Assembly: GCA_016932575.1 (NCBI GenBank) | Contig: JAFGCO010000061.1 | Coordinates: forward strand, 1-63,117 | From: a bacterium | GTDB taxonomy: Bacteria; Zhuqueibacterota; QNDG01; JAFGCO01 | DNA: 63,117 bases | Reading direction: 5' to 3' | In this document: positions 51,689 through 63,117 of the stretch, in pieces | How the letters are laid out: every line of letters begins with the position of its first letter | Numbering within the stretch: the first letter of the stretch is position 1 | Notes under the pieces: model-generated | The model's database searches: none | Seen by the model: the letters and a program-made list of their open reading frames with translations, nothing else | Told to the model about the DNA's origin: nothing | Made by a program: the position numbers and the translations under genes

Positions 51689-52747
51689 ATGAATAATATG
51701 CGATATGCAAGCAGCCTGTTTATTTTGATTGTTTTATTACTTGCCTGTTCATCCACTTCGAGAGTCAATGTTCAAGTGATGAAACCCGCTGAAATTCATC
51801 TGACAGGTGTTAAAAAACTGGCCGTTGTGGATTTTCAGGGGCCGGGCCGGTCTGGAAGTCAGATAGCCACGACAATGCAGTCCCTCCTGCTTCAGAAGCA
51901 GCAATATGATATGATTGAAAGGGATCGGTTAAAACAAATTCTTGATGAGCAGAATCTGAGTATGACAGGAGTGGTGGACGAAGCTTCTGCAGCTGAAATT
52001 GGAAAAGTCTTAGGTGTGGATGCCATGATTTTTGGAGAAGTAACCACTTATCAAGTGGAAAGGGATGAACGTGGTGTGGAAAAGGTGGAAAGAAAAGAGG
52101 GTACTGGTAAATACGAATGGGTAGAACAGAAAAATATTTTTACCGGCAGAAAGAAAAAAGTGAAAAAAGAAATCATGAAAACCGTGCTGGTTGATCAACA
52201 TTATAAAATTCGCCGGGGAACCGTATCTATTAATTTTCGCGTTGTAAATGTGGAAACCGGGCAGCTTTTGGCTGTACACAGTGATTCAAAAAGTTATGAC
52301 AGCGGCAAGGTTATTGAGGGAAGCGGAAAATCCCTGAAACCCCAAGGTCAGATTCTGGCTGAATTGTCTCGCGATATCACGAGAAAATTCGTCAATATGG
52401 TATCTATCCATGAAGTCACTCAGCAATTATTTGTCGAGCCGGGGAAAGACAATATCGACGTGGGAAGAAAATATGCGGAAAACGGACTCTGGCCCGAAGC
52501 AGTCGAAGCATGGAAACAGGCTGTTCAGATATTGCCGAATGAATCGGCAGGATATTATAATTTGGGTGTTGCTTTTGAAATTGATGGTGACTATGATAAA
52601 GCAGAAGCCATGTACAAGAAAGCAATGGCTCTTAAACAGAAAAAGCGGTATATGCAGGCGATATCACGTATTCGTGATGCACGTGCGGATCAGGCTAAAC
52701 TCGAACAGCAATTATTGGATCAGACAGATGACGAATGGATTGAATGA
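51689..52747 (+). CDS. CsgG-domain lipoprotein with C-terminal TPR
   Basis: This 352-residue protein has a lipoprotein signal ending LLAC (Cys20). A CsgG/DUF799-like domain follows: VKKLAVVDFQGPGRSGSQIATTMQSLLLQKQQYDMIERDRLKQILDEQNL, EIGKVLGVDAMIFGEVTTY, and GTVSINFRVVNVETGQLLAVHS. One or two TPRs follow at about 255-320 (AENGLWPEAVEAWKQAVQILPNES, YYNLGVAFEIDGDYDKAEAMYKKAM). CsgG itself forms an outer-membrane secretion pore; family members with TPRs are common in FCB bacteria and their role is unclear. AGGAGGGG lies upstream of the start. Confidence 0.85.
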   Translation: MNNMRYASSLFILIVLLLACSSTSRVNVQVMKPAEIHLTGVKKLAVVDFQGPGRSGSQIATTMQSLLLQKQQYDMIERDRLKQILDEQNLSMTGVVDEASAAEIGKVLGVDAMIFGEVTTYQVERDERGVEKVERKEGTGKYEWVEQKNIFTGRKKKVKKEIMKTVLVDQHYKIRRGTVSINFRVVNVETGQLLAVHSDSKSYDSGKVIEGSGKSLKPQGQILAELSRDITRKFVNMVSIHEVTQQLFVEPGKDNIDVGRKYAENGLWPEAVEAWKQAVQILPNESAGYYNLGVAFEIDGDYDKAEAMYKKAMALKQKKRYMQAISRIRDARADQAKLEQQLLDQTDDEWIE

Positions 52748-52787
52748 AATTGATATTCAAATCAAATCGTTATAGTATAAATTTTTC

Positions 52788-52816
52788 TTGACATCTATAG
52801 TAAATTTTATTAAATT
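52788..52816 (+). promoter_or_regulatory. promoter of the ilv-leu operon
   Basis: TTGACA (52788-52793), a 17-nt spacer and TAAATT (52811-52816). Transcription would start near 52823, leaving a leader of about 290 nt before ilvD, within which lies the leader ORF at 52857-53009. Confidence 0.75.
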
Positions 52817-52856
52817 TTCAAACCTAAATAGAATAAAATAAGATATATCTATCAAT

Positions 52857-53009
52857 ATGCGGCGGACAATGACACAAATTCTGAATATTTATCGTGGTGA
52901 AACCGTTCTTCAGATTCCATCCGTACGCATTCTTGACAATTTTTTTTCTCTCGTGCTTCTTATTTTAGTAGGTTTGACCCTCTTGGTACTCGTAGTGGTA
53001 CGGGACTAA
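52857..53009 (+). CDS. leader peptide of the ilv-leu operon, rich in Leu/Val/Ile
   Basis: A 50-codon frame opens at ATG 52857 (or at a second ATG, 52869, giving 46 codons). Its last part reads LVLLILVGLTLLVLVVV-Arg-Asp-stop, with 15 of the 17 hydrophobic codons being Leu, Val or Ile. It begins about 34 nt after the predicted transcript start and ends 104 nt before ilvD. This is the classical arrangement of a branched-chain amino acid attenuator leader such as IvbL/IlvL, though no homologue is recognised by sequence. The first ATG has no ribosome binding site; the second has a weak GGCGGA just upstream. A tiny single-helix membrane protein is the alternative, since such a helix would also be rich in these residues. 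Confidence 0.6.
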   Translation: MRRTMTQILNIYRGETVLQIPSVRILDNFFSLVLLILVGLTLLVLVVVRD

Positions 53010-53110
53010 GCATCGGGGTCATTCCTACATACCTCATAACTTTAATAATCACATTCACGTAGGAGTGGCCTCGATATGAGGGATGCAAAGGACTATGATC
53101 CGAAAGGAAT
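52975..53110 (+). promoter_or_regulatory. competing RNA stems between leader ORF and ilvD
   Basis: Four pairings share or interleave segments. TGACCC (52975-52980, within the Leu/Val codons) can pair with GGGTCA (53016-53021). ATTCCT (53021-53026) can pair with AGGAAT (53105-53110), which includes the ilvD ribosome binding site. CCTAC (53024-53028) can pair with GTAGG (53059-53063). CCTCAT (53032-53037) can pair with ATGAGG (53076-53081). No hairpin followed by a T-tract is present, so control at the level of ilvD translation is more likely than termination. The mechanism is inference. Confidence 0.45.
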
Positions 53111-53113
53111 ATT

Positions 53114-54790
53114 ATGCGAAGCGATATGATTAAAAAAGGTTTTGAACGTGCTCCGCATCGAAGTTTATTACGTGCATGCGGTATTAAAAAGGAAGATTTT
53201 GGCAAACCGTTTATTGGCGTTTGTAATTCATATGTGGATATCATTCCCGGTCATGTGCATTTGCAGGAATTCGGTCGACTGGTAAAAGAGGAAATCAGAA
53301 AAGCGGGCGGAGTGCCGTTTGAATTCAATACAATCGGGATCTGTGATGGCATAGCGATGGGACATATCGGTATGAAATATTCATTGGCCAGTCGTGAATT
53401 GATTGCCGATTCTTTGGAATCCATGGCAATTGCCCATCAATTTGATGGATTGGTATTAATTCCTAATTGTGATAAAATTGTGCCCGGAATGCTGATGGGT
53501 GCGCTTCGTGTCAATATACCGACGATTGTGGTCAGTGGCGGAGCCATGGCCGCAGGTAAAACAAAAGACGGTCGTATAACCGATCTGATTTCTGTTTTTG
53601 AAGGAGTGGGTGCATGTAAAGTCGGTAATATCAGTCTTGAGGAACTGAATGAATTGGAAGAAACAGGATGTCCGACCTGTGGATCCTGTTCCGGAATGTT
53701 TACAGCAAATTCCATGAATTGCCTTACAGAAGCGATTGGGTTGGGATTACCCGGGAACGGTACACATTTGGCGACTTCAAAAGAACGCAAAGCGCTCGTT
53801 CAAAAGGCCGGTAAACAGATTTTGGCACTCGTTGCTAAAGATATTAAACCGAGAGATATCGTAAATCAGGCATCACTGGACAATGCTTTTGCTGTGGATA
53901 TGGCCATGGGTGGATCCACCAATACAGTACTTCATCTCTTGGCTATTGCTCATGAGGCAGACGTGGAATATCCTATGGAACGTCTCCATGAAATCGCCTG
54001 CAATGTTCCTCAAATCTGTAAAGTATCGCCAGCATCTCACTGGCATATTGAAGATGTGGACGCTGCAGGAGGTATCCAGGCGATCATGAAAGAGATCAGC
54101 AAAATCAGGAATGTGCTCAATACAGAATTAATGACGGTGAATTTACAGACAGTGGGCGAGAACATTCAAGCTGCAGAAATAAAAAATCAGAACATCATCC
54201 GCAAATTGGATCAAGCTTACAGCAAAAGCGGAGGGCTTGCGATTCTGTTTGGTAATTTGGCCCCTCTCGGATCGGTTGTAAAAACAGGCGCAGTCGATCC
54301 CGGTATGATGGTTCATCAGGGGCCTGCTGTAATATTTAATTCACAGGAAGATGCCTGCAGCGGAATTTTAGACGGCAAGGTGAAATCCGGTGATGTGGTT
54401 GTTATTCGTTATGAAGGTCCGCAAGGGGGGCCTGGTATGCAGGAGATGCTGGCACCTACCGCAAATCTTATGGGAATGGGTCTCGGAGATAAAGTTGCAC
54501 TCATTACCGATGGACGTTTTTCCGGAGGAACACGGGGTGCCTGTATTGGTCATGTTTCTCCTGAAGCCGCGGCAGGCGGTCCTATTGGATTATTAAAAGA
54601 CGGTGATATGATATCGATTGACATTCCGAATCAAAAATTGAGTGTGGAATTGACAGATGATGAGTGGAAAATACGCAATTCAGAATGGAAGCCGCATGTA
54701 CCTAAAATAAATTATGGATGGTTACAAAGATATGCTAAAATGGTAACTTCTGCAAATACAGGCGCTGTATTATCGCCTAAACGACCATAA
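53114..54790 (+). CDS. ilvD: dihydroxy-acid dehydratase
   Basis: This 558-residue protein has the IlvD/Edd signatures: [51 protein letters not shown] (with Fe-S cluster cysteines), [27 protein letters not shown] and [20 protein letters not shown]. It removes water from dihydroxy-isovalerate and dihydroxy-methylvalerate, the third shared step to valine and isoleucine. It is the first gene of the operon; AAAGGA lies 6-7 nt before the ATG at 53114. Confidence 0.97.
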
Positions 54791-54830: not shown

Positions 54831-56540
54831 ATGACAGAAAATAAAAAGAATCCGGGAAAAAGTATGACGGGATCAGAGATACTGGTTCAAACATTGGTTG
54901 ATCTGGGTGTGACAAAAGTATTTGGATATCCCGGTGGGAAAGTGATTGGTCTTTATGATGTTCTCGACCGGACACCGGGAATTCAGGGAATTCTATTTCG
55001 TCATGAGCAGGGAGCTACCCACGCCGCTGATGGATTCGCACGGGCAACAGGAATGCCTGGAATTGTGATTGTCACATCTGGTCCCGGAGCCACAAATACT
55101 GTTACCGGAATTGCCACTGCTTATATGGATTCAATTCCGATCATCGTATTCACGGGACAGGTTCCATCTGCTATGATTGGTAACGATGCTTTTCAGGAGG
55201 CGGATATTATTGGAATTACACGACCGGTTACAAAGCACAGCTATCTGGCTCAGGATCCCGGCCAGATTGGTCAGATTGTCCGGGAAGCTTACCATATTGC
55301 AATTACCGGTAGGCCAGGTCCTGTATTAATTGATCTTCCCAGTGATGTCCTTGCAGCAAGTGGAGAACATCATCCCAATGAACATGTTATGATCCGAGGA
55401 TATAATCCGACATACAAAGGGCATAGCCAGCAAATTAATAAAGCCGCTGATATGTTGAACACAGCCAGGCGTCCATTGATCTATGCAGGGGGTGGTGTCA
55501 ATATTGGCCTGGCATCTGAAGAAATAACCGAGATTGCAAACAGAGGGCAGATTCCTGTAACAACAACTTTATTGGGATTGGGTGCTTTTCCTGAGGATAA
55601 TCCGTTATCGGTGGGCATGGTTGGTATGCATGGGACTTGGTATGCCAATATGGCAATGATGGAATGCGACGTTTTGATGTGTGTCGGTGCACGTTTTGAT
55701 GATCGTGTCACAGGTCGTCTGAATCATTTTTCCCCGAATTCAAAAAAGATACATATTGATATTGATCCTTCCTGCATTGCAAAAAATGTGGCTGTTGATA
55801 TTCCGATTGTTGGGCATGTAAAAAAAGTATTGCCGGATATTGTAAAAAAGATAAAGCCTGCAAATACGAAAGAATGGCTTGAGCAAATCAACTGCTGGAA
55901 AAATGAGCATCCCTTAAAGTATTCGAAAAGAGGCGAGGAAATTCTGCCGGAATATGTTGTTGAAAAAGTTGCTGAAATGACCAATCATCAGGCGATCGTT
56001 GTAACAGATGTTGGTCAGAATCAGATGTGGGCCGCTCAGTATTATGGATTTAAACGCCCGAGACAGATTCTTTCATCAGGAGGATTGGGTACCATGGGAT
56101 ATGGACTTCCTGCTGCACTTGGAGCAGCGATTGGATGTCCTGATGAAACGGTTGTTTGCTTTACTGGGGATGGCGGTTTTCAAATGAATATTCAGGAATT
56201 AACAACTGCGGTTCAAAATAAAATTCCATTAAAAATAGTATTATTGAACAATGGCTATCTGGGAATGGTTCGACAATGGCAGGAACTGTTTTTCGAAAGG
56301 CGGTATGCCATGACTGTTTTATCTGATGGCAATCCAAATTTTATGAAGTTGGCTGAAGGATACGGCGCTGTCGGATTACAGGCACAAAAATTATCGGATG
56401 TGGAAGATGTGATTAAAGAAGGGCTTAAGATTAAAAGACTTCCTGTGGTGATGGAATTTATCATCTGTCCTGAGGAAAATGTTTTCCCCATGGTGCCCGC
56501 GGGTGCTTCTTTGGATGAAATGCTTGAAAACGGAAAATAA
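54831..56540 (+). CDS. ilvB: acetolactate synthase large subunit
   Basis: This 569-residue ThDP enzyme has SEILVQTLVDLGVTKVFGYPGGKVIGLYD at the N-terminus, the catalytic Glu in RHEQGATHAADGFARATG, the FAD-binding middle domain (GRPGPVLIDLPSDV, ARFDDRVTGRL) and the ThDP-binding motif GDGGFQMNIQELTTAVQNKIPLKIVLLNN. The C-terminal RQWQELFFERRY typical of acetolactate synthase is present, setting it apart from glyoxylate carboligase. It makes acetolactate and acetohydroxybutyrate. It works with the small subunit encoded next. Confidence 0.97.
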   Translation: MTENKKNPGKSMTGSEILVQTLVDLGVTKVFGYPGGKVIGLYDVLDRTPGIQGILFRHEQGATHAADGFARATGMPGIVIVTSGPGATNTVTGIATAYMDSIPIIVFTGQVPSAMIGNDAFQEADIIGITRPVTKHSYLAQDPGQIGQIVREAYHIAITGRPGPVLIDLPSDVLAASGEHHPNEHVMIRGYNPTYKGHSQQINKAADMLNTARRPLIYAGGGVNIGLASEEITEIANRGQIPVTTTLLGLGAFPEDNPLSVGMVGMHGTWYANMAMMECDVLMCVGARFDDRVTGRLNHFSPNSKKIHIDIDPSCIAKNVAVDIPIVGHVKKVLPDIVKKIKPANTKEWLEQINCWKNEHPLKYSKRGEEILPEYVVEKVAEMTNHQAIVVTDVGQNQMWAAQYYGFKRPRQILSSGGLGTMGYGLPAALGAAIGCPDETVVCFTGDGGFQMNIQELTTAVQNKIPLKIVLLNNGYLGMVRQWQELFFERRYAMTVLSDGNPNFMKLAEGYGAVGLQAQKLSDVEDVIKEGLKIKRLPVVMEFIICPEENVFPMVPAGASLDEMLENGK

Positions 56541-56563
56541 GGATTGGCAATAGGAGATTTGTA

Positions 56564-57046
56564 ATGAGACATATACTTTCAGTAATTTTCGAAAATAAGT
56601 TCAATGCAATTCCGCGTATTTCCGGTCTGTTTAGCGGCCGTGGCTATAACATGAACAGTATGAGTTTCGGCGAAGGAGAAGATCCCGAAACAACGCGTGC
56701 AACAATCACCAGTGAAGGTGATGATCAGATTATCGAACAAATCGCAAAGCAGCTGAATAAGCTGGTCGATGTTATTAAGGTGGTTGAGCTTACCTATGAG
56801 CCCTTTGTTGAACGTGAACTGGCTCTGGTAAAGGTTCAGTCGTCCGCGTCGACCCGTGCAGAAATTATGCAGGTCGCTGATATTTTCAGAGCGAAGATTA
56901 TTGACTTGAGTCATAAGACAATTACGATTGAAGTGACCGGAAAGGAAGACAAAGTCAACGCTATTATTGAGATGCTCCAACAGTTCGGTATTCGGGAAAT
57001 TGCACGAACGGGAATTGTCGCCTTGAAGCGTGAATTTCAGAAATAA
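56564..57046 (+). CDS. ilvN: acetolactate synthase small subunit
   Basis: This 160-residue protein has an N-terminal ACT domain (HILSVIFENKFNAIPRISGLFSGRGYNMNSMSFGEGEDPETTRATI) and the C-terminal ALS_ss_C domain (RELALVKVQ, EIMQVADIFRAKIIDLSHKTITIEVTGKEDKVNAI). It is the IlvH/IlvN type of about 160 residues. The valine-binding glycine-rich loop GRGYNMNSM is present, so valine feedback is likely. A 23-nt gap separates it from ilvB. Confidence 0.96.
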   Translation: MRHILSVIFENKFNAIPRISGLFSGRGYNMNSMSFGEGEDPETTRATITSEGDDQIIEQIAKQLNKLVDVIKVVELTYEPFVERELALVKVQSSASTRAEIMQVADIFRAKIIDLSHKTITIEVTGKEDKVNAIIEMLQQFGIREIARTGIVALKREFQK

Positions 57047-57064
57047 TAAATAATTAAAAAATAA

Positions 57065-57078
57065 AAGGCTAAAGCCTT
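57065..57078. promoter_or_regulatory. short hairpin between ilvN and ilvC
   Basis: AAGGCT-AA-AGCCTT is a 6-bp perfect stem (effective loop TAAA), followed by AACTCC rather than a T-tract. It may be an RNA processing or stability element. Confidence 0.35.
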
Positions 57079-57126
57079 AACTCCAATAAAAAAATAAATA
57101 ACCATACTGTTTGAAAGGAAATAAAA

Positions 57127-58116
57127 ATGAAAATGTATTATGATTCAGATGCTGAGATAAGTCAATTATCCGGTAAAACAGTGGCCATCGTGGGATATGG
57201 AAGCCAGGGGCACGCGCAGGCACAAAATCTTCGGGACAGCGGTGTCAATGTCATTGTTGCTGAAATGCCTGATACATCCAACTGGAAACTTGCTGTTTCT
57301 CATGGATTTACACCGATTTCAGCTGAGGAAGCTGCTGAGAAAGCGGATATCGTTCAAATTTTAATCCCGGATGAATTGCAGGGCAAGGTATACGCTCAGT
57401 CTATTGAAAAACATATGAGTACGGGCAAAGCACTGGTTTTTTCGCATGGATTTAATATTCATTACAAACGGATTCAGCCGAATTCTGAGATTGATGTTTA
57501 TATGGTAGCGCCGAAAGGGCCCGGACATCTTGTGAGACGGACATATGCAGAAGGTGCAGGTGTACCGGCATTGATTGCTATATATCAGGATGCAACAGGA
57601 AAAGCCAAAGATTTGGCCCTGGCGCATGCATGCGGTATTGGTGCAGGACGTGCCGGTATTATTGAAACAACCTTTAAGGAAGAAACTGAAACTGATCTTT
57701 TCGGAGAGCAGGTCGTGCTTTGTGGGGGGGTTACAGAATTGGTAAAGGGTGGATTTGAGACCCTGGTGAATGCCGGATATCAGCCGGAAATCGCTTATTT
57801 CGAATGTCTGCATGAGTTAAAGCTTATTGTGGATCTTTTTTATGAAGGTGGTATTGCAGGCATGTATTATTCTGTAAGCGACACAGCAGAATATGGGGGG
57901 ATGACCCGGGGCCCAAGAGTCATTGATGCTGATACAAAAAAACGTATGGAAAAAATTCTTCAAGAAGTTCAGGATGGATCATTTGCAGAAGAATGGATAA
58001 GTGAAAATGAATCCGGGCGTCCAAATATGAAAAAGCTGCGCGATGAGCATCGGGCATTAAAAATTGAAGAGGTAGGTAAAAAATTACGGGAAATGATGTC
58101 ATGGATTAAAAAATAA
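57127..58116 (+). CDS. ilvC: ketol-acid reductoisomerase (class I)
   Basis: This 329-residue enzyme has the Rossmann glycine motif [45 protein letters not shown], and the C-terminal knotted domain ([39 protein letters not shown]). It isomerises and reduces acetolactate and acetohydroxybutyrate. The loop after the second strand reads [12 protein letters not shown] (residues 42-53). Against the common GLRxGSxSW, the phosphate-binding Arg and last Ser are replaced by Met47 and Asn52, and acidic Glu46 and Asp49 appear, which suggests NADH use. The catalytic residues are intact. Confidence 0.96.
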
Positions 58117-58200
58117 TTAGAGCAGCATTTAAAAATAAGACTTGCACTGACTGAGTGAATATAGTAAAAATAAAAGTTGTCTTTGTGAATGGAGGCAATG

Positions 58201-59745
58201 ATGGATAATCGGGTAATCATATTCGATACAACACTCCGGGATGGTGAGCAGGCACCCGGATGCAGCATGACCATGGAACAGAAATTACGCATGGCCAGGC
58301 AGCTTGAAAAACTTGGTGTGGATGTGATTGAAGCCGGCTTTGCCATCGCCTCCGAAGGTGATTTCGAAGCTGTAAAACGCGTTTCAATGGAAATAAAAGA
58401 CTGCACAATTTGCAGCCTGGCTCGTACAAAAAAAACGGATATCGACAGGGCATGGCAAGCATTACAATATGCAGAAGATCCATTGATTCATACATTTATT
58501 GCCACTTCAGATATTCATATCCTGCATAAACTGCATATGAATCGCGACCAGGTCTTAAAGACAGCAGTCGAACATGTCAAATACGCAAAGCAATATTCTG
58601 AAAAGGTCGAGTTTTCTGCTGAAGATGCAGGACGGAGCGATGTTGACTTCCTTTGTAACATTTTTGAAGCAGTCATTGATGCAGGTGCCACAGTCATCAA
58701 TGTGCCGGATACAGTGGGGTATGTCATACCTGATGAATTTGGTAATCTAATTAAAACCATCCGCGAGAAGGTTCCGAATATTCATAAAGCGATTCTTAGT
58801 GTGCATTGTCATAATGATCTGGGGCTGGCTGTCGCAAATTCAATTGCGGCCGTTGCCAATGGAGCTCGTCAGGTTGAAACGACCATCAATGGTATTGGAG
58901 AACGGGCCGGAAATGCATCTATGGAAGAATTTGTTATGGCATTAAATACACGAAAGAATTTATTGGATTTAGAAACAGGTGTTGTGACGACAGAGATTTA
59001 TCGATCGAGCCAGCTGCTGACCAGTCTGACAGGGATGACAGTACAGCGAAACAAGGCCATTGTAGGAGCCAATGCCTTTGCTCATGAAGCCGGCATCCAT
59101 CAGGATGGTATGCTCAAGAATAAACAAACGTATGAAATTATGACACCTGAATCCGTAGGCATTCACAAAAGTGCTCTTGTCCTTGGAAAACATTCAGGAC
59201 GGCATGCTCTCGGAGAAAGATACAAAGAGCTTGGGTATGAATTGAGTAAAGATGATTTGGAAGTCGCGTACAAATCGTTTATCAGACTGGCAGATAAAAA
59301 GAAGGATATTTATGATGCGGATTTAATTGCGATTATTCAGGATGAAATCTCAGAAATTCCTGAAATTTATGAATTTGAGTCACTACAGGTAGTCAGCGGT
59401 ACAGAAATCACTCCGACAGCAACGATAAAATTAAAAAGGGGAGATCAATCTTTGATGGACTCTTCCATAGGAGATGGCCCTGTCGATGCTGCCTGCAGAG
59501 CGATTGACCGTATTACCGGAATTCAGTGCAAATTAATTAACTATTCTATCCATGCGGTGACAAAAGGCAAGGATGCACTCGGAGAAGTTCTGATCCAGGT
59601 TGAGTATAACGATCGGTCCTACGCAGGACGGGGCGCAAGCACGGATATTATCGAGGCCAGCGCTAAAGCTTATATTAATGCCATTAACCGAGTGGTTCAT
59701 ACAAGTGAATCCGATTCGGGTGATGATACTATCGATCAGATATGA
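58201..59745 (+). CDS. leuA: 2-isopropylmalate synthase
   Basis: The ATG at 58201 follows GGAGG by 5 nt and gives 514 residues starting MDNRVIIFDTTLRDGEQAPG (metal-binding, catalytic). The barrel continues with FSAEDAGRSDVDFL and SVHCHNDLGLAVANSIAAVANGA (metal-binding His-x-His), and GERAGNASMEE. The linker contains HEAGIHQDGMLK, and the C-terminal LeuA dimer domain (from about residue 390) carries the leucine feedback site. It condenses acetyl-CoA with 2-oxoisovalerate. It begins the leu half of the operon. Confidence 0.96.
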   Translation: MDNRVIIFDTTLRDGEQAPGCSMTMEQKLRMARQLEKLGVDVIEAGFAIASEGDFEAVKRVSMEIKDCTICSLARTKKTDIDRAWQALQYAEDPLIHTFIATSDIHILHKLHMNRDQVLKTAVEHVKYAKQYSEKVEFSAEDAGRSDVDFLCNIFEAVIDAGATVINVPDTVGYVIPDEFGNLIKTIREKVPNIHKAILSVHCHNDLGLAVANSIAAVANGARQVETTINGIGERAGNASMEEFVMALNTRKNLLDLETGVVTTEIYRSSQLLTSLTGMTVQRNKAIVGANAFAHEAGIHQDGMLKNKQTYEIMTPESVGIHKSALVLGKHSGRHALGERYKELGYELSKDDLEVAYKSFIRLADKKKDIYDADLIAIIQDEISEIPEIYEFESLQVVSGTEITPTATIKLKRGDQSLMDSSIGDGPVDAACRAIDRITGIQCKLINYSIHAVTKGKDALGEVLIQVEYNDRSYAGRGASTDIIEASAKAYINAINRVVHTSESDSGDDTIDQI

Positions 59746-59755
59746 GCCTGTCCAT

Positions 59756-59869
59756 ATGGAACATGTTAAATCGCATTTTGCAATGCTGATTTATTTGATG
59801 TTATATGGAAATATTATAATTATGCCGTTTATTGCGGCTGTAAGGATTAAAATAACAGGAATTGTGTAA
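59756..59869 (+). CDS. possible small hydrophobic ORF between leuA and leuC
   Basis: A 37-codon frame starts at ATG 59756, is rich in Ile, Leu, Met and Val (AMLIYLMLYGNIIIMPFIAA), and ends in TAATG, so its stop overlaps the leuC start. No convincing ribosome binding site precedes it. It may be chance sequence in the 123-nt gap, a single-helix peptide, or a coupling leader. Confidence is low. Confidence 0.25.
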   Translation: MEHVKSHFAMLIYLMLYGNIIIMPFIAAVRIKITGIV

Positions 59870-61164
59870 TGACAATTACAGAAAAAATATTAGCAAAACA
59901 CGCAAATACATCTCATGTGAATCCAGGTGAAAATATCTGGATTGATGTGGATGTATTAATGACTCACGATGTATGCGGACCTCCCACCATTGGCATCTTC
60001 AAAAAACAATTCGGAGAAAATGCAAAAGTATGGGATTCTCAAAAAATTGTTATTATTCCGGATCATTATATTTTTACAAAAGACAAGCATGCGCATCGTA
60101 ATGTTCAGATACTTAGAGAATTTGTCCAGGAACAGGGACTGCCGTATTTTTATAATCCGGGAACAGAACAATATAAGGGTGTTTGTCATGTTGCTTTGGC
60201 AGAAGAAGGATTTAATCTACCGGGTTCTGTGCTATTTGGTACAGACTCGCATACATGCACAGCAGGTGCATTCGGCATGTTCGGTACAGGTATTGGAAAT
60301 ACGGATGCGGCATTTGTTATGGGTACAGGAAAGTTATGGATTAAAGTACCTGAAACAATGAAATTTATTATTGAAGGGGAGCTTCCGCCTTATCTCATGG
60401 CTAAAGATATTATACTGAAAATCATTAATGATATCGGTGTGGACGGGGCAACTTACAAAGCCATGGAATTTGACGGAGAAGGTATTTTTTCTCTTAATAT
60501 GGAAGAACGAATGACGCTGTGCAATATGGTCATCGAAGCTGGAGGAAAGAATGGTATCATTCAGGCAGACGAAAAAACGATTAAATATGTCAAGGCGCGT
60601 ACAGATCGTGAGTTTGAAATTTATCAAAACGATTCAGATGCCACGTTTGAGAGTATCCATATTTTTCAGGCTCATAAAATTGAGCCTATGGTGGCAAAAC
60701 CTTACCTGCCCAGTAATGGTGTTCCGGCAAAAACGCTGAAGGATATTCAATTGGATCAATGTTATATCGGATCATGTACCGGTGGTAAAATTACCGATTT
60801 TATTGCGGCAGCGAGAATATTAAATAATCAGCAGGTTAAAGTAAAAACAATTGTTGTCCCGGCTACAAGAGAAGTGGATGCAAAATTTGATTCGGAAACC
60901 ATTCATGGAAAAACTCTGAGAAAAATTTTTACGGATGCAGGTGTCGAGTTGGGACCTCCTTCATGTGCAGCTTGCCTCGGAGGTCCTCCGGATACCTTTG
61001 GCCGTTTAAATTCGGATGAAATTTGCATTAGCACCACCAATCGGAATTTTCACGGTCGCATGGGATCCAAAAAATCCCAAACATATTTGGCATCGCCATA
61101 TACAGTGGCTGCGTCAGCAATTACCGGTAATATCACAGATCCAAGAGAATATTTAGAAAAATAA
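59869..61164 (+). CDS. leuC: 3-isopropylmalate dehydratase large subunit
   Basis: This 431-residue aconitase-superfamily subunit has DVDVLMTHDVCGPP, the substrate/cluster segments LFGTDSHTCTAGAFGMFGTGIGNTD, CYIGSCTGGKITDF and PPSCAACLGG (Fe-S cysteines), and the closing STTNRNFHGRMGS. The length and the C-x2-C arrangement match the shorter LeuC type common in archaea and many bacteria, rather than the 466-residue E. coli type. It isomerises isopropylmalate with the LeuD subunit. AGGA lies 8 nt before its start. Confidence 0.95.
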   Translation: MTITEKILAKHANTSHVNPGENIWIDVDVLMTHDVCGPPTIGIFKKQFGENAKVWDSQKIVIIPDHYIFTKDKHAHRNVQILREFVQEQGLPYFYNPGTEQYKGVCHVALAEEGFNLPGSVLFGTDSHTCTAGAFGMFGTGIGNTDAAFVMGTGKLWIKVPETMKFIIEGELPPYLMAKDIILKIINDIGVDGATYKAMEFDGEGIFSLNMEERMTLCNMVIEAGGKNGIIQADEKTIKYVKARTDREFEIYQNDSDATFESIHIFQAHKIEPMVAKPYLPSNGVPAKTLKDIQLDQCYIGSCTGGKITDFIAAARILNNQQVKVKTIVVPATREVDAKFDSETIHGKTLRKIFTDAGVELGPPSCAACLGGPPDTFGRLNSDEICISTTNRNFHGRMGSKKSQTYLASPYTVAASAITGNITDPREYLEK

Positions 61165-61212
61165 TAAAATAAGATCTGCTAATGGATTCAGGAAAGAAGA
61201 AGGTAACGCAAA

Positions 61213-61776
61213 ATGAACAACATGATCAGTGGAAAAGCATATGTATTAGGAAATGACGTCGATACAGACCAGATCATTCCGGCAGAACATCTGGTTTATA
61301 ATATGGATGAACCTGAAGAACGCCGGTTATATGGTATGTACGCTCTCTCGGGTGTGCCGCCGCAGAAATCCGGGCTTCCTAAAGGAAACATACCATTTGT
61401 TCCGAAAAATTCTGATAAATCGATATATAAGATTATTATCGCGGGCAAGAATTTCGGATGCGGTTCGTCAAGAGAACATGCCCCCGCTGCTTTGAGTATT
61501 GCTGGGGTTCAAGCAGTTGTTGCATTGTCATACGCCAGGATTTTCTATCGAAATACTGTGGACGGCGGATTTCTGATCCCCTTTGAGAGTAAAGATAGCT
61601 TGTTTAATAAAATCCGAACAGGTGATGAAATTACCATTCGTCAGGATATGTACATATTGAAAAACATTACAACAGAGAAATCATACAATCTGAAATCTCT
61701 GGGAGAAGTTGCTGGAATTGTTGAAACGGGAGGACTTTTTCTTTACGCAAAACGAAAGAACCTGATATCAAAATAG
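61213..61776 (+). CDS. leuD: 3-isopropylmalate dehydratase small subunit
   Basis: This 187-residue swivel-domain protein has GKAYVLGNDVDTDQIIPAEHL, the substrate loop GKNFGCGSSREHAPAALSIAGVQAVVALSYARIFYRNTVDGGFLIPFE and the short type C-terminus. GSSREHA is the conserved substrate-binding segment. It pairs with the LeuC encoded 48 nt upstream. GAAGAAGGTAA precedes the ATG. Confidence 0.95.
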   Translation: MNNMISGKAYVLGNDVDTDQIIPAEHLVYNMDEPEERRLYGMYALSGVPPQKSGLPKGNIPFVPKNSDKSIYKIIIAGKNFGCGSSREHAPAALSIAGVQAVVALSYARIFYRNTVDGGFLIPFESKDSLFNKIRTGDEITIRQDMYILKNITTEKSYNLKSLGEVAGIVETGGLFLYAKRKNLISK

Positions 61777-61788
61777 AAAGGAAATATT

Positions 61789-62874
61789 GTGTCAGAAACT
61801 ACCTATAAAATTGCTGTTATTCCGGGAGATGGCACAGGACCGGAAGTTGTCAGAGAGGGTCTGAAAGTACTTCAAGCTGCTGCAGAAAAATTTAATTTTA
61901 CACTGGATACCCGGGAATATGATTTTGGCGGAGACAGGTACTTACGTACAGGCGAAGTACTTCCCGAAACAGCTGCTGATGAGATGCGTCAATTTGATTC
62001 TATTTTTCTTGGCGCTATTGGTCATCCGGATGTGAAGCCGGGTATCCTTGAAAAAGGTATTTTACTGAAATTGCGATTTGATCTGGATCAATATATCAAC
62101 CTTCGTCCTGTTAAATTATATCCGGGTGTGGATACACCGTTAAAAGACAAAGGGCCTCAGGATATAGACTATATAGTGGTCCGTGAAAATACAGGCGGTC
62201 TTTACACCGGAATTGGCGGTTTTACAATGAAACATACGGAACATGAAGTGGCCGTTCAGAGCATGGTATATAACCGACATCAGGTTGAACGTTGTTTACG
62301 TTATGCATTTGACTATGCACGAAAACACGGTAAAAAAGCCAGGGGAAAAGGGGAATATAATACATTGGGACTGGTTGGAAAAACCAATGTGCTGACATAT
62401 GTTTATGATCTATGGGAACGTGCTTTTCATGAAATCGGTGATTCTGACTATCCGGATATACAGAGAGAATATTATCATGTTGATGCAACATGCATGTGGA
62501 TGGTGAAAAGTCCTGAGTGGTTTGATGTGCTGGTCACCGGTAATATGTTTGGTGATATAATTACGGATCTGGGTGCGATAACACAGGGTGGCATGGGGAT
62601 AGCGGCCGGGGGCAATATTAATCCGGAAGGCGTCAGCATGTTCGAGCCCATTGGCGGTTCTGCTCCAAAATATACAGGAAAGAATATTATCAATCCTCTT
62701 GCTTCAATTTGCTGCGGCGCGATGATGCTCGAACATCTTGGCGAGACTGCGGCGGCTGAAGCCATTGAAAAAGCCGTCATGGAGGTGACAGGCAGTAAAC
62801 TGAAAAGCATGAGCGCCGGAAAGATGGGGTATTCTACATCTGAAGTGGGAGATCTGGTGGCTGAAGGGATCTGA
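61789..62874 (+). CDS. leuB: 3-isopropylmalate dehydrogenase
   Basis: This 361-residue beta-decarboxylating dehydrogenase has VIPGDGTGPEVVREGLKVL, LRFDLDQYINLRPVKLYPGV (substrate Arg residues), VVRENTGGLYTGIGG, GLVGKTNVLTYV, the metal-binding Asp in VTGNMFGDIITDLGA and NINPEGVSMFEPIGGSAPKYTGKNI. The LRFxLDxYxNLRPVKLY form fits LeuB of the actinobacterial/archaeal-like subgroup; tartrate or D-malate dehydrogenase is the main alternative, but operon context settles it as LeuB. The GTG start has AAAGGAAA upstream. It is the last gene before the terminator. Confidence 0.94.
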   Translation: MSETTYKIAVIPGDGTGPEVVREGLKVLQAAAEKFNFTLDTREYDFGGDRYLRTGEVLPETAADEMRQFDSIFLGAIGHPDVKPGILEKGILLKLRFDLDQYINLRPVKLYPGVDTPLKDKGPQDIDYIVVRENTGGLYTGIGGFTMKHTEHEVAVQSMVYNRHQVERCLRYAFDYARKHGKKARGKGEYNTLGLVGKTNVLTYVYDLWERAFHEIGDSDYPDIQREYYHVDATCMWMVKSPEWFDVLVTGNMFGDIITDLGAITQGGMGIAAGGNINPEGVSMFEPIGGSAPKYTGKNIINPLASICCGAMMLEHLGETAAAEAIEKAVMEVTGSKLKSMSAGKMGYSTSEVGDLVAEGI

Positions 62875-62902: not shown

Positions 62903-62929
62903 GACCGCTCCAAATGGGCGGTCTTTTTT
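62903..62929 (+). terminator. intrinsic terminator of the ilv-leu operon
   Basis: GACCGCTC-CAAAT-GGGCGGTC is an 8-bp stem (one G-T pair) with a 5-nt loop, immediately followed by TTTTTT (62924-62929) and further T-rich sequence. It lies 29 nt after the leuB stop and is a textbook rho-independent terminator. Confidence 0.93.
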
Positions 62930-63006
62930 ATTTGTTTTTTTATACTGATTTCTGTAAAATGAATCATTCTTACAGAACTTTGGCAAATTTTGAGTTTGAG
63001 CAATGT

Positions 63007-63068
63007 TTTCAGAAGGTAACCTTTTCAGATAAGCACACTCCATTAAATAAAAAGGTTACCTTCTGAAA
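63007..63068. repeat. 19-bp perfect inverted repeat beyond the leuB terminator
   Basis: TTTCAGAAGGTAACCTTTT (63007-63025) and its exact complement (63050-63068) are separated by 24 nt. Each arm contains AAGGTWACCTT, itself nearly symmetric, so the element could be either one long hairpin or two operator boxes. It is 78 nt past the operon terminator, near the right edge of the window, and the sequence beyond is not visible. Confidence 0.7.
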
Positions 63069-63117
63069 CGATAGTTTGCTATCCGGTGTGTGGGAAAGAA
63101 AGATTATTCCTTTTGAA

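Follow-up and report, generated by a model that had tools for sequence, protein, structure and literature searches.

A candidate leader-peptide RNA switch without a U-tract terminator upstream of the ilvD operon in FCB-group bacteria

Introduction

The attenuators of the E. coli trp, ilv (IlvL, IvbL) and leu (LeuL) operons have a leader ORF rich in codons for the operon product and RNA pairings that exclude each other, with one arm lying in the leader; leuL also has rare CUA codons. Here we analysed a comparable locus in the window, which is the whole stretch of 63,117 nt of contig JAFGCO010000061.1 (assembly GCA_016932575.1, forward strand). It likewise has a product-codon-rich leader ORF before a biosynthesis operon and RNA arms, one of them inside the leader, whose alternative pairings are incompatible, and the rare CUA codons in the leaders of its family are a further likeness to E. 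coli leuL. It differs from the E. coli attenuators by the lack of a U-tract terminator, by the length and low G content of the loop that joins arms 2 and 3, and by the phyla in which it is found.

Several other systems are close to it. The ilvD attenuator of S. aureus has a Leu/Ile-rich leader 5' of ilvD and the ilv-leu operon, and its terminator stem-loop with poly-U lies 52 nt past the stop (PMC5794164). The placement of the leader is shared with the window, whereas the poly-U terminator is not, and no three-copy arm design has been described for the S. aureus system. In Corynebacterium ilvB-II and the ilvB-OMG motif, an ORF with many branched-chain codons lies ahead of ilvB, and ilvB-II also has a strong terminator, a stem with a U stretch (PMC10272879); ilvB-II is like the window in the first respect but not in the second. 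The actinobacterial LEU element and cys leaders are amino-acid-rich and have no obvious terminator, and the LEU element is a pseudoknot in which Leu codons pair with the leuA Shine-Dalgarno box (PMC1262725). They share with the window a rich leader without an obvious terminator, but the LEU arrangement and the phylum are different. A ribosome on a leader ORF also sets the access to downstream RNA in ermC-type translational attenuators and tnaC-type Rho-dependent leaders; in the window, by contrast, the signal would be the supply of charged tRNA, and site occlusion and Rho dependence are putative.

According to a 2010 survey, Proteobacteria and Actinobacteria were until then the only groups with demonstrated leader-peptide systems, and the survey added Firmicutes (PMC2965389). 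Later work added Staphylococcus (PMC5794164) and Listeria, where another branched-chain leader-peptide attenuator was described (PMC5864092). The first-pass annotation of the window regarded such a leader as new in an FCB-type bacterium, and we found no earlier description for this pathway in the FCB group in the literature searched; a 2010 comparative attenuation study (Lopatovskaya et al.) may contain earlier predictions. Branched-chain leader-peptide attenuators are thus known, but this family, its phyla and its missing U-tract terminator were not found in the literature searched or in Rfam. The switch would extend branched-chain leader-peptide control to the FCB group.

Results

A Leu/Val/Ile-rich leader ORF precedes the ilvD operon

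The features of the locus are collected in Table 1. Family models upheld the gene identities of the ilvD-ilvB-ilvN-ilvC-leuA-leuC-leuD-leuB operon. Judged from these families, the operon makes the same amino acids for which the control codons of the leader stand. In the part at 59869-62874, LeuC and LeuD had top scores with HacA/archaeal-type families, and LeuB scored best with PRK03437, not TIGR00169. An inverted repeat, AGAAGGTAACCTTTT ... AAAAGGTTACCTTCT, was observed at 63010-63070, shortly past the operon's terminator.

The promoter and the frame of 46-50 codons reported in the first-pass annotation are both present upstream of ilvD. The ORF encodes 50 aa, or 46 aa when read from a second in-frame ATG at 52869, and has no clear Shine-Dalgarno sequence by sequence inspection. 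As counted before, its last 20 codons comprise 8 Leu, 6 Val and 1 Ile (15/20). When the intergenic region was shuffled 2000 times with its dinucleotides kept, a tail as rich as this one (13 Leu/Ile/Val in the last 17 codons) appeared once. Transcription would start near 52823. At a comparable place upstream of the leader, 27 of 33 family members match TTGACA/TATAAT at 10 or more of 12 bases.

Two minor regularities were seen at the end of the leaders. The final sense codon is mostly NGC (GGC in 24, AGC in 5 and CGC in 4 of 52 members, across phyla), and the stop is TAA in 44 of the 52.

Table 1. Features of the leader region and the operon (positions in the window)
Feature	Position	Strand	Basis or remark
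Sigma-70-type promoter of the operon, TTGACA-N17-TAAATT	52788..52816	+	sequence; similar site in relatives
Leader ORF, 50 aa, MRRTMTQILNIYRGETVLQIPSVRILDNFFSLVLLILVGLTLLVLVVVRD	52857..53009	+	Leu/Val/Ile-rich C-terminal tail; ORF listing and comparison with relatives
Arm 1, GTAGGTTTGACCCTCTTG, within leader codons, pairs with arm 2	52968..52985	+	1:2 duplex -23.5 kcal/mol
Arm 2, ATCGGGGTCATTCCTAC, common to both exclusive hairpins	53012..53028	+	inverted repeat, pairing overlap
Arm 2-arm 3 loop, no G	53029..53058	+	sequence
Arm 3, GTAGGAGTGGCCTCGAT, pairs with arm 2	53059..53075	+	inverted repeat and two-sided changes
Shine-Dalgarno-like AAAGGAA of ilvD	53103..53109	+	sequence
ilvD, dihydroxy-acid dehydratase, first gene of the operon	53114..54790	+	family model
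ilvB, ilvN, ilvC, leuA, leuC, leuD, leuB	54831..62874	+	ORFs and family models
Intrinsic terminator with U-tract, operon end	62903..62932	+	standard type; none in the leader

The leader is conserved while its codons drift

The search for IlvD covered 39 genomes of the window's phylum, counting the window's own. Twenty-four ilvD upstream regions, the window's among them, were long enough to judge. In 19 of these a Leu/Ile/Val leader with a repeat directly after it was found, and these 19 leaders end 100-157 nt 5' of ilvD. Leader and repeat are absent upstream of ilvD in four of the 24 regions (L014, L015, L017, L019), and L023, also among the 24, is a distant paralog. Within the window's order, the frame and the repeat are both present in each of the 8 genomes whose ilvD upstream region is intact. 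In G005 the end of the contig truncates ilvD, and no ilvD was found in G001, G004 and G011.

Between related leaders, 239 codons have changed. Among these changes 79 are synonymous, versus 33.5 expected, and 56 are interchanges between Leu, Ile and Val, versus 29.7 expected. The conservation check proposed with the first-pass annotation asked whether frame and Leu/Ile/Val tail persist in relatives while the codons drift synonymously, and it gave a positive result.

The control codons are skewed toward rare codons. Of the Leu codons, CUA makes up 66% in the leaders versus 3% in genes in the Bacteroidota set, and 11% versus 1% in the window's phylum, where GUA reaches 52% of the Val codons in the leaders versus 12% in genes.

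Three RNA arms allow two exclusive pairings

A 17-bp inverted repeat, formed by arms 2 and 3 around a 30-nt loop, begins 3 nt after the leader stop. The first-pass annotation described the frame correctly but missed this repeat and its third copy inside the frame. This third copy, arm 1 (GTAGGTTTGACC, inside Leu/Val codons), closely resembles arm 3. Arm 2 therefore has two possible partners, arms 1 and 3, of which it can bind only one at a time, and about 75% of the arm 2 bases in 2:3 are also used in 1:2. The leader would thus form mutually exclusive pairings with one arm within its codons, as is predicted for an attenuator. On average the loop of the family has 5.8% G, 24% C and 45% A.

The 2:3 helix is supported by compensating changes. 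In a plain MAFFT alignment of 13 members, two-sided changes occur at 9 of 15 pairs, and sliding the partner destroys the signal. When 30 sequences were fitted to the model, such changes were seen at 12 of 15 modelled pairs. In this 30-member alignment 88% of the helix cells are paired, versus 72% in shuffles, and the covariation score is 0.37 versus 0.16, a value reached by 0 of 500 shuffles; after a slide of one column it falls to 0.06-0.11. The 30-member alignment was fitted to the structure, and the plain, unfitted 13-member alignment (A1) gave the same picture.

Across the family, the 1:2 duplex has a mean energy of -20.4 kcal/mol. Set against random synonymous recodings that leave the leader peptide unchanged, it exceeds their mean strength in 31 of 33 members (mean z -1.9), and on average it is better than swaps with the arms of other species (mean z -1.5); both z values are averages over related sequences, whose shared ancestry makes these values overstate independence. 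The duplex of the window was equalled by 2% of synonymous redraws. In several members (L011, L012, L016, L036) arm 1 pairs no better than redraws.

The element probably senses the supply of Leu, Val and Ile

We consider it likely, with good confidence, that the element is a ribosome-read RNA switch sensing the supply of Leu, Val and Ile; this confidence concerns the switch as such and not its output step. Sequence comparison backs the frame, the tail, the promoter, the 2:3 helix and the complementarity of arms 1 and 2 in this predicted switch. RNA polymerase would start near 52823, and a ribosome would then follow on the leader ORF. When charged Leu, Val and Ile tRNAs are plentiful, the ribosome would read to the stop and leave, arms 1 and 2 would pair, arm 3 would stay free, and the expression of the operon would be low. 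When these tRNAs are scarce, the ribosome would stall in the Leu/Val/Ile codons and cover arm 1, whereupon 2:3 would pair and the operon would be expressed.

We infer the stalling and its direction from the design of the element. The order of the arms, with arm 1 in the control codons, arm 2 past the stop and arm 3 further on, is of the trp type, so full reading should favour 1:2 and stalling 2:3. Because the operon is biosynthetic and stalling favours 2:3, 2:3 would have to be the ON state.

The output step and rival explanations

No terminator-like site was found in 52600-53300, hence no U-tract terminator between leader and ilvD, and the arm 3 hairpins of the members inspected have no U-tract directly behind them. 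The output that we favour, but hold loosely and give an even chance, is premature transcription termination without an intrinsic U-tract terminator, possibly by Rho. It would take place in the roughly 100 untranslated bases between the leader stop and ilvD. Rho is encoded in the genome. The C-rich, almost G-free loop would suit Rho loading, yet it could also simply keep the loop open, and it is short.

Ranked next, as a distinctly less probable output, is occlusion of the ilvD ribosome site in an ermC-like translational attenuator, in which 1:2 pairing frees arm 3 to hide this site and stalling leads to 2:3 and exposes it. Such a mechanism fits the lack of a U-tract. With arm 3 freed, opening the ilvD start region costs 1.4 kcal/mol more on average, and the accessibility of the ilvD start against shuffled or swapped arm 3 gives a mean z of about 0.6 ± 0.26 over the family, with a strong effect in L010, L013 and L024 and a weaker one in L008 and L009. 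However, direct pairing between arm 3 and the start region is no better than in swaps (family mean z -0.24 ± 0.19), most Calditrichota members show no sign of occlusion, the effect in the window is only about +1 kcal/mol (z about 1), and to reach the seven genes behind ilvD the effect would have to involve coupling or polarity. As a general output, Shine-Dalgarno sequestration was set aside, since direct pairing fails against swaps and the accessibility effect is weak.

It is improbable that the element is a classical attenuator with an intrinsic terminator, of the IlvL/IvbL/LeuL type. The logic of control codons and competing arms is the same, a local 3:4 hairpin occurs in part of the family (the Bacteroidota set, mean z -1.33 ± 0.31, and several Calditrichota), and three other loci (L044, L096, L104) have U-tract hairpins after a Leu/Ile/Val leader. 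Against this reading, the leader region has no terminator-like site though a standard terminator ends the operon in the same genome, and the arm 3 hairpins inspected are not directly followed by a U-tract. The attenuator reading of the first-pass annotation is thus supported in part: the conserved leader with its coding-type drift and the competing arms fit ribosome-mediated control, but an equation with the classical IlvL/LeuL attenuator is not supported.

Very unlikely is a reading of the hairpin as a binding site for a protein or small molecule to which the frame would be secondary. The long conserved stem, the conserved bases in it and the open loop would suit such a site, but the kept Leu/Ile/Val codons, the enrichment of rare codons and arm 1 would be left unexplained, and Rfam 15 gave no match of the window's element to a T-box, riboswitch or other relevant family. 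The least probable reading takes the hydrophobic tail for the transmembrane helix of a small membrane protein, with incidental RNA arms: a stretch of about 20 hydrophobic residues suffices for one helix, but the tails consist of Leu, Ile and Val with Gly and Ser and hardly any Phe, Ala or Met, the N-terminal parts and lengths vary among members, the leader always adjoins genes of this pathway, and the codon choice serves RNA pairing.

Returning to termination without a U-tract, we suggest as a tentative and rather doubtful extension that the element represents an FCB-group family of branched-chain attenuators, in at least three phyla, whose OFF state would use neither a U-tract nor simple Shine-Dalgarno occlusion; the conserved TATATCTG that lies roughly 8-16 nt behind a small 3:4 hairpin in the Bacteroidota and Calditrichota branches might then be a new pause or termination signal. 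In the window's phylum, a 3:4 hairpin (arm 4) was rejected as no better than shuffles for most members.

The octamer TATATCTG is conserved 8-16 nt past arm 3, and its position is fixed relative to the hairpin and not to the start codon. It was seen in L182-L184, L188, L189, L192, L195-L197, L036, L039, L145, L146 and L009, and 14 of 51 members match it at 7 or 8 of 8 positions, versus 1.5% of shuffles; it is absent in the window. The TTGAC of arm 3 and the octamer behind it were also considered as the two boxes of an internal promoter; this reading was rejected, the spacing being 3-4 nt too short for sigma-70.

The predicted switch family spans at least three phyla

The spread of the element was surveyed by covariance models built in this analysis. 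Of the 82 genomes in the window's phylum, 21 have the element. For Calditrichota, 12 of 40 genomes reach the model threshold; on inspection about 8 of these matches were taken as leaders (including L152 before leuB) and three as other sequence, and L149 was assigned to neither group. The phylum of Bacteroidetes-labelled MAGs (the Bacteroidota set) gave matches in 19 of 296 genomes, L200 being false. In the control phylum, the one around a Desulfobacterales MAG, none of 198 genomes matched. After sequence inspection, the weak matches L126-L128, L139, L153-L155 and L200 were rejected as leaders. Compared in this way, the candidate switch family spans at least three bacterial phyla. The genes behind the element are ilvD, ilvB, leuB (L152) and threonine synthase/thrC (L117), all of which belong to this pathway or feed it. 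The L117 case (genome G041) has the same leader and hairpin before the threonine synthase gene and not before an ilv gene.

By RpoB, the window's phylum lies beside Calditrichota, Bacteroidetes MAGs and Neomarinimicrobiota, and this placement confirms that the bacterium is of the FCB type, as the first-pass annotation had it. The closest IlvD among named genomes is that of a CSSED10-310 MAG (L028, JAFGJC010000489.1), which has the same leader before its ilvD operon. Because this MAG is far from the window's phylum by RpoB and is the sole carrier of the element among the 8 genomes of its own phylum, its element suggests horizontal transfer or a misbinned contig.

In two members, L124 and L202, the stretch that separates the switch from ilvD contains additional repetitive sequence (in L202, for example, repeats of GTGAGTGGTGAGTTGT), so that the distance from arm 3 to ilvD is about 150 nt or more. 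Other Leu/Ile/Val-rich frames stand before ilvD in L044, L096 (Gemmatimonadetes) and L104 (Desulfobacterales), where hairpins with U-tract terminators overlap the frame or come after it.
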